Assembly: GCF_014211915.1 (NCBI RefSeq)
Contig: NZ_CP060039.1
Location: forward strand, 2,976,001-3,040,000
Origin: Burkholderia cenocepacia
GTDB lineage: Bacteria; Pseudomonadota; Gammaproteobacteria; Burkholderiales; Burkholderiaceae
Direction: 5' to 3'
Length of the DNA stretch: 64,000 nucleotides
Below are positions 1 through 61,923 of the stretch, in pieces (within the stretch, counting starts at the first letter, position 1; the number at the start of each line of letters is the position of its first letter). The position numbers and the translations under genes are program-made. The notes under the pieces were generated by a model. It was not told the DNA's origin and did no database searches. It saw nothing but the letters and a program-made list of their open reading frames with translations.

Positions 1-155
1 GTCACGGGCCGCACGGCGCCGCCGCCGCGATGGCGCCAGACATGGCCGCGCAGTTCGTAGCCGTCGGCTGCGCGCAGCGTCACGGGCTCGGGCGGCAACG
101 CGCCCGCCGCGCGACTGGCCTGCGCCGCGTCGCTTTCCTCGTTCGAAATCGTCAT
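1..155 (-). CDS. Alpha/beta hydrolase, N-terminal part (truncated by window edge)
   Basis: Only the first 51 codons lie in the window; the gene runs off the left edge. The start ATG (complement of 153-155) follows a good AGGAGA ribosome binding site. The peptide contains LRAADGYELRGHVWRHRG, which resembles the first beta strands of serine alpha/beta hydrolases, where a substrate-side 'DG..L....W' strand opens the fold. The catalytic residues would be outside the window, so the family call rests on this short stretch. A hairpin repeat element (166-214) sits directly upstream of the ribosome binding site, inside the expected leader. The LysR regulator on the other strand is divergent and could control this gene; that is inferred from position only. 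Confidence 0.55.
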   Translation of the reverse strand, partial: MTISNEESDAAQASRAAGALPPEPVTLRAADGYELRGHVWRHRGGGAVRPV

Positions 156-165
156 CGTGTCTCCT

Positions 166-214
166 GTCGATCCCCAGTTAGCGCTTTAGCGCTTACTGGG
201 GTCCCATGCATCGC
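166..214 (-). repeat. 49-bp hairpin repeat element, copy A, in the leader of the hydrolase gene
   Basis: The core TTAGCGCTTTAGCGCTTA is flanked by CCCCAGT on one side and ACTGGGG on the other, giving a long stem. The same layout recurs at 61826-61923 with a different but still complementary outer stem (CCGGAGT/ACTCCGG). Conserved flanks are GTCGA at one end and GGTCCCATGCA at the other. The element abuts the ribosome binding site of the minus-strand hydrolase gene. Confidence 0.8.
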
Positions 215-220
215 GGTCGG

Positions 221-253
221 TCGGGGTTAGCGCTTCAGCGCCTACTCGCCCCG
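221..253. repeat. Diverged third version of the hairpin element
   Basis: The stretch holds TTAGCGCTTCAGCGCCTA flanked by CGGGG and CCCCG. It keeps the core and a complementary outer stem but lacks the conserved GTCGA and CCCATGCA flanks, so it looks like a decayed or related copy next to copy A. Confidence 0.5.
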
Positions 254-340
254 TCCTCCGCGATCAACCCGCCTCCATTGAACTTGACGCGTGCCGCATT
301 CTCAACCAATCTTGCTGCTCCGTTCGCATGAGTCACGCGC

Positions 341-35839: not shown

Positions 35840-36237
35840 CGCGCATACGTCTCGCAGTCGCAACTGCGCACCTGGTCGGTCGCACCTAACCGGCCGCACC
35901 TAACCGGCCGCGCACAAAGTAAAAGGCCTTCATCGCCAGATGAAGGCCTTTTTTCATGCGCACGCGGGCGCCTTCGGGCGGCGGGCTCTTTGGCGGTATC
36001 GGTTACGCCTCGAGCAACGCAAATGCGACTCTGCCGTGGTCTGCACGGACTGCGCGTTCTGCCCTATCTGGCTCACAATATATGCGGCCACCTGATTTCG
36101 CTCAGAACTTCCTTCGCGAAATGGGATTTCAATATAGGCCCGCCCGCGCACGCATTCAAGGTTCCGGCGATTGAAACTTGCGATTGCAGACGACGCTTCA
36201 ATGACAAAACAAATTTGCGTCGTCGTGCACGCCGTGT
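35840..36237. other. Intergenic stretch between exbD and the LysR gene
   Basis: After the stop comes a small tandem repeat of CGCACCTAACCGGC (35881-35909), then a terminator (35921-35954). The remaining 280 bases are gene-free; short frames here have no support. Confidence 0.5.
35921..35954 (+). terminator. Terminator after exbD
   Basis: AAAAGGCCTTCATC and GATGAAGGCCTTTT form a 14-pair stem around GCCA, with a T run; it also works on the other strand. Confidence 0.9.
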
Positions 36238-39175: not shown

Positions 39176-39362
39176 CCGAGTATTGTGGGGACCACCTCCC
39201 TGAGAGGTGTTGGGCAGTAGCCAGCGTAACGGCTTGCACGCGAGATCTAGACCCCTTCGTGCAAACACACTCAAGCAGCCGTTGCAGCAAGCCAAGCCAC
39301 TTTTTTGGTTCTCGCACAAGGAAGAAAAAAAGCGACACGTCGAAGGACGTGTCGCTTTTTTG
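39176..39362 (+). ncRNA. Candidate structured RNA downstream of hemP (3'UTR-type sRNA)
   Basis: The 185 bases after hemP have no frame but can form three hairpins: CACCTC/GAGGTG near 39193-39208, TTGCACG/CGTGCAA at about 39234-39264, and a strong terminator stem AGCGACACGTC/GACGTGTCGCT (39331-39356) followed by seven T. It could be the 3'UTR of hemP or an independent small RNA. I see no clear internal promoter. Confidence 0.4.
39331..39362 (+). terminator. Terminator after the hemP segment
   Basis: AGCGACACGTC pairs with GACGTGTCGCT around GAAG and is followed by TTTTTT; an A run precedes it, so it may act in both directions. Confidence 0.9.
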
Positions 39363-50970: not shown

Positions 50971-51085
50971 GCCTGACGATTACCTACTTTCACACGGGAA
51001 TCCGCACTATCATCGGCGTAGAGTCGTTTCACGGTCCTGTTCGGGATGGGAAGGGGTGGGACCGACTCGCTATGGTCATCAGGCA
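50971..51085 (-). rRNA. rrf: 5S rRNA
   Basis: The minus strand reads TGCCTGATGACCATAGCGAG at the 5' end, continues with CCACCCCTTCCCATCCCGAA (loop B/C consensus), and ends near GGTAATCGTCAGGC, pairing with the start. Length is about 115. Exact ends are approximate. Confidence 0.93.
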
Positions 51086-51239
51086 AAGGGGGTTGTTCTG
51101 CTGGCGTGGCCAACAGAACCAATCTTGGAAGAAGCAGTAATTAGGTTGTGTGTATCACACACGAGAATCCAACATGTCGCTTTGGATCGCGGCCGGTGCT
51201 GTCGCACGGCGCCGATCTACAAGGCAGACTTGTTATAGG

Positions 51240-54115
<2,876 letters not shown>

Positions 54116-54300
54116 CTATAACGAGTCTGTCTCATCGACAGTCGCTACAGGTTGAGTTCTCGCGTTGTGCCGTATTCCAATTTAAGTCGAACATAGAGTT
54201 CGAATCATCTTGAGATACATCGATACAATCACAACCCGGATAACTTCCACGTCCATCTCGAGACGCTTCCGCTATCCAAATTACTTACTTCTTCCAGATT

Positions 54301-54310
54301 GTTAAAGAAC
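54301..54310 (-). promoter_or_regulatory. boxA antitermination site before 23S
   Basis: On the minus strand GTTCTTTAAC lies in the 16S-23S spacer, followed by AATCTGGAAG. It matches the NusB/S10-binding boxA of rRNA spacers. Confidence 0.7.
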
Positions 54311-54404
54311 GACAGCCGATATCTGTTGATATCCTCTGACTGGCTCAATCGCCAATGCAAAATTCTCGGTTCAGTGTCTGAACCAAGCCCTTAGCGTTGG
54401 TGAT

Positions 54405-54480
54405 TGGTGGAGGCAGACGGGATCGAACCGACGACCCCCTGCTTGCAAAGCAGGTGCTCTCCCAGCTGAGCTATGCCCCC
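54405..54480 (-). tRNA. tRNA-Ala (anticodon TGC)
   Basis: The 76-base minus-strand sequence starts GGGGGCATAGCTCAGCTGGG and ends GCCTCCACCA. The anticodon loop reads TTTGCAA, giving TGC. It lies in the 16S-23S spacer as usual. Confidence 0.97.
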
Positions 54481-54521
54481 ATGTACAGAATTCCTCAGGT
54501 GTGTACCGCCACACAAGACGG

Positions 54522-54598
54522 TGGTGGGTCTGGTTGGATTCGAACCAACGACCCCCGCCTTATCAAGACGGTGCTCTAACCGACTGAGCTACAGACCC
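54522..54598 (-). tRNA. tRNA-Ile (anticodon GAT)
   Basis: The 77-base minus-strand sequence starts GGGTCTGTAGCTCAGTCGGT and ends CAGACCCACCA. The anticodon loop CTTGATAAG gives GAT. It precedes tRNA-Ala in the spacer. Confidence 0.97.
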
Positions 54599-54660
54599 CT
54601 GAGTCTGTCTTTAATTTACAGCCGATAAGCGTGAGCGCTCAACTTTGCGAGAAGCTCTGG

Positions 54661-56192
<1,532 letters not shown>

Positions 56193-60657: not shown

Positions 60658-61812
60658 TTAACCGAACGTGTCGATGTGCACCAGGATCGCGGCGAGCATC
60701 GCCGCGCCGAGCGCCGCGCTGCGCTCGCCGTTCCAGCCGACACGCTCGTCGGGCAGGTTCGCGTTGTCCTTGAACGGCATTTCGAGCGTCAACGACAGAC
60801 AGCCGAACTGGTGGCCGATGTACTTCGACGCGAGCTTCAGCGCATCCTCCTTGTACTTGCTCGCCGCGTAGCCATGCTCGGTCTGGAAGTCGGGGCTTGC
60901 GACCTTGAACGCGTCGATGAACGCAGCCTGCTCCTTGCCCTGCTGCTCGGTAAAGCTCGGCAGCATCTCCGAGCCGGCGACGAACACGTACGGCAGATCC
61001 TCGTCGCCGTGAATGTCGAAGAACATGTCGCAACCGATCGCGTGGATCGCATCGCGCACGGCCAGCACTTCGGGGCTGCGCTCGGCATCGGGTGCCATCC
61101 ACTCGCGGTTCAGGTTCGCGCCGGCCGCATTGGTGCGCAGGTTACCGTGCACGCTGCCGTCCGGGTTCATGTTCGGGACGATGTAGAACGTCGCGCGATC
61201 GTAGAGCTTGCGCGCAACCGGATCGCCAGCCCAATCGCCCCATCCGGCCAGCCGCTTGACCAGGCCTTCGACGAACCACTCGGCCATCGATTCGCCCGGA
61301 TGCTGACGCGCGATGACCCACACCTTCTTCTTCGGCGCACCATCGGTTTCCGGCGTGCCGAGCGTCAGCAGCGACATCGGACGGCCTTCGACCGTACGGC
61401 CGAGCTCGACGACGCTCGCCTGCGGCAACTGCTGGACCGCACCGAGAAACGCCGCGTGACGCTCTTCCGAGTACGGTTCGAAATACGCGTAGTAGATGCT
61501 GTCGAACTCCGGCGTATGGTCGATGGTCATCGTCTTGCCGTCGAACGTCGTCGGCACGCGGAACCAGTCGACCCGGTCGTAGCTCGCCACCGCGTGGTAG
61601 TTGCGCCAGCCCGACGGATACGCGCATTCGGCTGCGTTCTCGAACGTCATCACGCATCGCTCGCCGCGCGCACCCGTCAAGCGGTAGTAAAACCATTGCG
61701 CGAATTCCGAACGATTGTCGCCGCGCACGCGCAGCCGGATTGCGTCGGGGCTTTCGCACGACACGACGTCGATTGCGCCTGCGTCGAAATTACTGGTGAT
61801 CGAAAGGGCCAT
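60658..61812 (-). CDS. M14-family zinc carboxypeptidase
   Basis: The 384-residue protein has the M14 zinc site: His and Glu in VIARQHPGESMAEWFVEG, the third ligand in FFDIHGDEDLPYVF and the catalytic Glu in LSLTLEMPFKDN. The N-terminal 120 residues form the beta-sandwich domain (WFYYRLTGARGERCVMTFEN; YDRVDWFRVPTTF) of the cytosolic carboxypeptidase (CCP)-like subgroup. The substrate is unknown; eukaryotic relatives remove glutamate from tubulin. ATG 61812 follows AAGGAGA. Two tandem hairpin repeats sit directly upstream. Confidence 0.9.
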   Translation of the reverse strand: MALSITSNFDAGAIDVVSCESPDAIRLRVRGDNRSEFAQWFYYRLTGARGERCVMTFENAAECAYPSGWRNYHAVASYDRVDWFRVPTTFDGKTMTIDHTPEFDSIYYAYFEPYSEERHAAFLGAVQQLPQASVVELGRTVEGRPMSLLTLGTPETDGAPKKKVWVIARQHPGESMAEWFVEGLVKRLAGWGDWAGDPVARKLYDRATFYIVPNMNPDGSVHGNLRTNAAGANLNREWMAPDAERSPEVLAVRDAIHAIGCDMFFDIHGDEDLPYVFVAGSEMLPSFTEQQGKEQAAFIDAFKVASPDFQTEHGYAASKYKEDALKLASKYIGHQFGCLSLTLEMPFKDNANLPDERVGWNGERSAALGAAMLAAILVHIDTFG

Positions 61813-61825
61813 CTATCTCTCCTTT

Positions 61826-61874
61826 GTCGACCGGAGTTAGCGCTTTAGCGCTTACTCCGGTCCCATGCAAAGCT
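61826..61874 (-). repeat. 49-bp hairpin repeat element, copy B, in the leader of the carboxypeptidase gene
   Basis: The core TTAGCGCTTTAGCGCTTA is flanked by CCGGAGT-type and ACTCCGG-type arms, GTCGA at one end and TCCCATGCAAAGCT at the other. It abuts AAGGAG of the minus-strand gene, as copy A does at the other end of the window. Copy C follows directly. Confidence 0.85.
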
Positions 61875-61923
61875 GTCGACCGGAGTTAGCGCTTTGGCGC
61901 TTACACCAGTCTCATGCAAAGCT
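61875..61923 (-). repeat. 49-bp hairpin repeat element, copy C, tandem to copy B
   Basis: It matches copy B at 45 of 49 positions. Two of the four changes break the outer stem (ACACCAG against CCGGAGT) and one lies in the core (TTTGGC), so this copy pairs less well. A third, decayed start (CGCGACCGAAG) follows at 61924. Confidence 0.85.

Follow-up and report, generated by a model that had tools for sequence, protein, structure and literature searches.

Three kinds of small repeat come closest to the element described here. REP and REPIN sequences are thought to be mobilised by RAYT transposases. MITEs are defined by terminal inverted repeats and a target-site duplication, and rickettsial palindromic elements (RPEs) are palindromes that lie inside open reading frames (ORFs). 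In the parts of PMC3733652 available to us, the REP tag is a GTAG (GGAG) or CGTC sequence at the foot of the hairpin, and the REP families lie mostly behind genes, or at no fixed distance to the next start codon; section 15 of the same paper is a source for the comparison with RPEs. In the main texts of PMC3733652 and PMC3116915, as far as these were available, the words Burkholderia and Shine are absent. Within our limited coverage of the literature, such a repeat also goes unmentioned in the available part of PMC4603805, which deals with the transcription start sites of B. cenocepacia.

The locus that we compare with these systems is a pair of hairpins in the window, by which we mean the whole stretch of 64,000 nucleotides from a Burkholderia cenocepacia contig (NZ_CP060039.1) that was analysed. 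We consider it probable that the hairpins belong to a short, non-autonomous palindromic repeat of about 49 nucleotides, mobile or copying, which becomes joined beside Shine–Dalgarno (SD) sites and adds new copies at the SD end.

Table 1. Hairpin units, ribosome-binding sites and genes at the two loci of the window
Feature	Position	Strand	Evidence or remark
Copy A1, SD-proximal hairpin unit	163..210	-	covariance model R1, 64.3 bits, E 7e-13; RNA fold
Copy A2, distal decayed unit	213..259	-	covariance model R1, 46.7 bits
Shine-Dalgarno AGGAG abutting copy A1	161..165	-	sequence
Alpha/beta hydrolase gene, start	3..155	-	runs off window; 346 aa in genome
Copy B1, SD-proximal hairpin unit	61823..61869	-	covariance model R1, 74.0 bits, E 1.8e-15; RNA fold
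Copy B2, distal unit	61872..61918	-	covariance model R1, 64.3 bits
Shine-Dalgarno AAGGAG abutting copy B1	61819..61824	-	sequence
M14 zinc carboxypeptidase gene	60658..61812	-	ORF and family assignment

A sequence-only reading of the window had pointed to two copies, A and B, with a common core and outer stems whose arms change together, and both were found at these loci. The copies are real, although their flanks (CCCATGCA), first drawn farther out, stop at 210 (A) and 61869 (B); copy A has one extra base within the stem region. A hairpin does stand before each gene, but a second, decayed unit lying 49-50 nucleotides farther out had been overlooked, with its core at 227 in locus A and 61886 in locus B, and both loci are tandem pairs with this period. 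The distance from the start codon, thought to be the same, is similar but unequal, with a gap from CGAC to ATG of 10 nucleotides at A and 13 at B. The gene calls were upheld, one gene coding for an alpha/beta hydrolase and the other for an M14 zinc carboxypeptidase. The reading frames on either side of the carboxypeptidase array run in the same direction; those beside the hydrolase array diverge. With up to three mismatches the core occurs four times in the window, against a mean of 0.02 in shuffles, and the RNAs of copies A and B fold approximately 4.5 standard deviations better than shuffled sequence.

Each unit is about 49 nucleotides long and forms a near-perfect hairpin of 14 base pairs, in which 9 base pairs, an A.A mismatch and 5 base pairs lead up to a URAA loop. 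Its parts are a constant GCATGGG, a variable outer stem of 9 base pairs, an AGCGC/GCGCT inner stem and a UAAA or UGAA loop. The foot, GGTCGAC on the sense strand, is conserved and abuts the SD. Covariance model R1 was built from 17 copies of the B. cenocepacia genome, and these bear out the proposed covariation of the stem: 7 of the 14 pairs are altered on both sides, which is equalled in 3 of 500 shuffles. The covariation score is 0.288 compared with 0.121 in shuffles (0 of 500 as high), and shifting the partners abolishes it.

No Rfam family reaches its gathering score on the element. Relaxed thresholds gave weak matches only, to naRNA4 (26.7 bits, where the gathering score is 59.5) and to MIR4359, and an Rfam identity for the hairpin was dropped since all matches were sub-threshold. 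For orientation, naRNA4 is a REP-derived RNA. Elsewhere in the window there are Rfam matches to the Burkholderia sRNAs ncS011 and BTH_s39 (35918-36125 and 39180-39308), and an rRNA operon lies at 50971-56191.

The model finds 29 sense-strand copies in the genome of this strain at E <= 0.01, in 18 arrays. By eye, an SD and a start codon directly follow the unit in 14 of the 18; at the biotin carboxylase array the SD lies about 12 nucleotides beyond the unit, two further arrays are antisense in a leader ORF (class II, see below) and one is a weak match elsewhere. The downstream genes code for aldehyde dehydrogenase, NadA, M14 carboxypeptidase, ExbD/TolR, acyl-CoA dehydrogenase, two hydrolases, an MFS transporter, ATP synthase gamma, lactate permease, GMC oxidoreductase, biotin carboxylase, an amino acid permease, DUF485 and DUF2471. 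They have no common function, in agreement with the earlier view that the hairpin precedes unrelated genes.

The element is found in all 25 same-genus genomes (this one included), with 9 to 73 copies each, and the same search found it in none of 16 genomes of other families. Under strict filters, a family sample of 200 genomes from 25 genera shows it in 85 genomes and 8 genera; among the matches listed (at least 120 stretches), those with names come from Burkholderia, Paraburkholderia, Trinickia and Caballeronia. One genome, G073, has 17 identical copies of the class II type. On one plasmid record with annotated genes, the match covers the final 17 nucleotides of the upstream gene and lies 8 nucleotides ahead of the next gene.

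Fixed orientation and a fixed place before the SD had also been claimed from the sequence, and both hold widely: most arrays stop 0-4 nucleotides short of a sense-strand SD. Our first set contains 119 arrays (122 minus 3 places fetched twice), with 51 of 334 matches removed as overlapping reverse-strand shadows. An SD, a start codon and an ORF of at least 60 codons follow in 82 of these; 23 are class II, including 17 places from G073 alone, and 14 are other, five of which (L056, L062, L074, L117 and L140) show an SD and a start by eye, with an ORF that is short or unscored. The loci were picked among the best-scoring matches, including 20 stretches of G073, so the absolute purity of their proximal copies is biased upward. 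A second set, drawn from named genomes with sequence as the sole criterion, gave 81 SD-type, 16 class II and 15 other among 112 evaluable proximal copies. In several of these 15 a repeated half-unit precedes an SD; some adjoin an A-run that resembles the end of an opposing terminator. A single classifier applied to both ends of the array found an SD with a start codon at the CGAC end in 76/112 cases, at the other end in 11/112 and at 728/20000 random positions. The junction is narrow. In the 83 SD-type arrays CGAC is invariably followed by A and then, in most cases, by GGAG, and the SD core starts 0 to 4 nucleotides past CGAC in 78/81 of the SD-type copies from the second set. Copies mostly outside leaders, without regard to orientation and without covariation, had been named as the mark of a passive repeat; across genomes, the copies present the opposite picture.

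Class II copies (L083 and L099-L113 of G073, L023 and L026 of the B. cenocepacia genome) carry the element antisense inside an ORF, and the element begins 26-29 nucleotides after the first base of an SD-bearing ATG. These ORFs often have 43-86 codons (MNDPHAHIRSLSTGVSALALTPVPCKAPPEGADA...), those at L104 and L107 continue into a longer frame, and several have a stop codon that overlaps the SD/ATG of the following gene (GGGAGGCATCATGA). Class II looks like a repeated leader ORF. At L056 and L074, which come from two genomes, a unit and SD are followed by an identical 11-codon ORF, MTTAFLPLRMS, a possible leader peptide. Repeated half-units of the GCTAAAGCGCTAACTC-GGTCGACA type follow the last full unit at L089, L271, L278, L339 and L342, in some cases directly before the SD, as would result from template slippage at the loop.

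The arrays are tandem, mostly with a period of 49 nucleotides; L122 and L134 instead alternate 45- and 47-nucleotide units, giving a dimer period of 92 nucleotides over nine or more units. The arrays are also polar. In 61 multi-copy arrays, where copies are compared within their own array, the paired fraction at ranks 1 to 5 from the SD is 0.976, 0.886, 0.831, 0.818 and 0.795 (n = 60, 56, 30, 20 and 8), with no further fall over ranks 6-9 (11 copies in all). Among 88 unequal comparisons between neighbours, 77 have the copy nearer to the SD as the better paired; without rank 1, 40 of 51 do. In sets that were not picked for quality, the best copy stands at rank 1 in 7/9 arrays of the B. cenocepacia genome, in 5/7 carboxypeptidase arrays (the proximal copy scoring lower in 2/9 and 2/7) and in 20/20 nadA leaders, these being leaders with two or more units whose proximal copy scores above the next. 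Such a gradient is consistent with growth of the array at its SD end. It is also consistent with selection that acts on the SD-proximal copy while duplicates are released from it, in keeping with the identical stem arms of 58 of 118 adjacent copies, and both processes may be at work.

Comparison of the same leader in related genomes helps to characterize how copies come and go. For each of three genes we used 30 of 31 genomes (G014, which lacks a usable locus, was left out), counting filled sites by covariance model. The carboxypeptidase leader is filled in 14/30 same-genus genomes, with one to four units, and 16 are without; the atpG leader is filled in 8/30, with one unit each. In contrast to this patchiness, the nadA leader is filled in 29/30 at E <= 0.01 (27 at E <= 0.001), which suggests selection in place at this gene.

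The empty atpG site reads CGGT-CAAGGAG, and is also found in outgroup genomes and in G003, the neighbour of the B. cenocepacia genome on a two-gene tree. In filled sites approximately 49 nucleotides stand between CGGT and the SD. Judged by these comparisons, about 49 nucleotides appear to have been cleanly inserted at the filled sites of atpG and carboxypeptidase, and no target-site duplication was seen by eye in the filled and empty versions of the two. The two-gene tree, which is weak in places and to which exchange between strains can add changes, calls for at least 9 changes of state at carboxypeptidase and at least 5 at atpG. The atpG copies have the same stem, so at this gene a single insertion, lost or exchanged afterwards, is more probable than repeated insertions. 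At three empty carboxypeptidase sites (L175, L177 and L179) and at the nadA site in G021, the GCATGGGAC or GGGGC side runs straight into AGGAG, a junction that looks like the scar of a lost hairpin. Some empty sites could be due to loss, or to exchange between strains, rather than standing for a state before gain.

The stems themselves change rapidly. Between nadA leaders from species whose genes are 2-4% apart (17 pairs), two-sided differences affect 2.47 of the 9 outer-stem pairs and one-sided differences 1.12; for random copies the figures are 2.02 and 0.95. This comparison uses the leaders that passed filters, 26/30 for nadA and 12/30 for carboxypeptidase (14 filled). By this measure of sequence divergence, stem identity is saturated between the nearest species, and stems turn over faster than genes. 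Given this saturation, and since two-sided changes are commoner than one-sided ones, replacement of whole hairpins accounts for the data better than stepwise compensation. Whole-hairpin turnover can produce covariation, so covariation alone is no proof of selection on an RNA.

How would such a repeat spread? Under the mobile or copying repeat that we favour, the hairpin would be recognised as folded single-stranded DNA. The folded unit would then be joined beside the complement of the SD, CTCCT on the other strand, or would spread by an equivalent copying route. Fresh units would enter at the SD end, either inserted there or duplicated from the proximal unit, and would displace older ones outward, where these decay. 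Once settled, the unit would be transcribed, placing a stable hairpin next to an exposed SD. Its probable effect is a small shift in mRNA stability or translation, which may come from slower decay on the 5′ side or from altered ribosome entry. Some genes, e.g. nadA, would keep the hairpin for its effect on expression, and some copies may have acquired a use, as their long persistence in front of nadA suggests. A more specific form of this proposal, which we put forward tentatively and think less likely than not, is a mobile element with the SD as its insertion address and a CRISPR-like polar accretion at the SD end, with old hairpins decaying outward.

Another possibility, which we think unlikely, is that the hairpin is a cis-regulatory RNA in the first place. 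It would be a protein or sRNA site, or an mRNA stabiliser, selected at the SD, with released duplicates decaying and spread being secondary. The sequence-only reading had proposed a structured RNA of this kind, and the structure, covariation, orientation, place at the SD and unrelated genes on which it drew all stand. What counts against conserved regulatory RNA as the primary identity is that the same gene has or lacks the hairpin in near relatives, that arrays decay away from the SD and that some copies are antisense inside a leader ORF. The details cut both ways. Watson-Crick pairing is 96.5% in proximal and 84.4% in distal copies, as expected if the copy at the SD is the selected one, and the fixed place and orientation and the near-constant presence before nadA (29/30 genomes) agree with this. 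The unit between atpA and atpG, which we take to be in one operon, is almost certainly transcribed. The patchiness at carboxypeptidase and atpG, the lack of a shared function downstream and the saturated stem differences between nearest species do not agree with it. Wobble pairs divide in the same way. Over 169 distinct sequences G.T and A.C are about level (100 vs 105), a count against RNA; without pair 18-31, which has a common A-C variant, and at the level of arrays, G.T exceeds A.C (78 vs 46), a mild sign of folding on the sense strand, as RNA or as single-stranded DNA. These pairing and wobble figures, like the paired fractions by rank given above, are for matches of exactly 47 nucleotides. 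Control of translation or stability by the hairpin is still a possible consequence.

We regard it as quite improbable that no transposition is involved, and that the pattern comes from old tandem repeats rearranged by slippage, by unequal crossing-over and by gene conversion between loci, with empty sites left by deletion between repeats of GAC or GGTCGAC. Such shuffling is what one would look for in view of the identical stem arms in 58 of 118 adjacent copies, the dimer-period arrays and the scars GCATGGGAC-AGGAG and GGGGC-AGGAG, which resemble deletions between short repeats. However, the plain empty atpG site occurs in outgroup genomes, the gradient is polar and not symmetric about the centre of the array, and scattered new locations with the same junction require some insertion step. 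A DNA operator for a transcription factor, suggested by the inverted AGCGCT repeats in the core, is hardly credible when the outer arms are free to vary provided they pair, and when the site is tied to the SD, even inside an operon (atpG), rather than to a promoter.

A palindromic repeat that is fixed to the SD in one orientation, at tens of places per genome, would be a natural generator of new mRNA leaders, and could alter the expression of a gene in one step. Its presence and absence between near species provide a ready set of natural experiments. Furthermore, covariation of a stem, the usual sign of a selected RNA structure, can stem from turnover in a pool of mobile palindromes. If the reading of the SD as an address is true, genes repeatedly receive a fresh, intact hairpin before the ribosome site.

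A mobiliser was sought among the Y1-type transposases. By Pfam, the B. cenocepacia genome has one Y1-type gene, coding for a RAYT-like protein (G000:C1:874277-874993; L229, L245). The protein is diverged: it reaches 52.8 bits against NF047646, where the cut-off is 80, and by eye it has QVQ where HuH enzymes should have histidines and is missing the Y---NP motif described in the available part of PMC6006769. The gene is present, nearly always in single copy, in 184 of 200 family genomes. These include all 85 element-bearing genomes and 99 without an element match, and the 16 genomes without the gene have no element match either. Around the gene, the covariance model found no element within approximately 1.5 kb at 25 loci, and at 11 loci a regular expression found only isolated foot letters, GGTCGAC. 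The RAYT-like core gene was dropped as a nearby mobiliser on the strength of the 0 model matches in 25 loci. The Pfam search also listed other IS200-type genes (L213-L217); this test covered the loci of the RAYT-like gene.

Against the known systems, the element compares as follows. Cis-regulatory leaders in Rfam are likewise structured, covarying and upstream of genes; the difference is that none of these families reaches its gathering score at the element. RPEs share with it the copies in short ORFs, class II being readable as codons, but its class II ORFs resemble leader ORFs for the most part, and the majority of copies lie outside any ORF. With MITEs and small insertion repeats the element has in common that it is non-autonomous and shows insertion polymorphism at orthologous sites. 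It differs in having no visible target-site duplication, in terminal repeats that are imperfect, the ends being only partly complementary, and in its SD target with one orientation. The likeness to REP and REPIN sequences is the closest. Both are short imperfect palindromes (20-60 nucleotides for REP), mostly intergenic, in tens of copies and tandem clusters with a varying pool of stems, and both are presumed to move as folded single-stranded DNA; the class II copies are inside short ORFs. Where a REP carries its tag the element has the foot GGTCGAC, and where REPs flank a RAYT gene no linked RAYT was found in 25 loci. Its position, fixed to the SD, is also unlike that of the REP families in the available part of PMC3733652. 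Although it differs from REPs in its tag and in linkage to a RAYT gene, the element is REP-like, and its place is among the small palindromic repeats.
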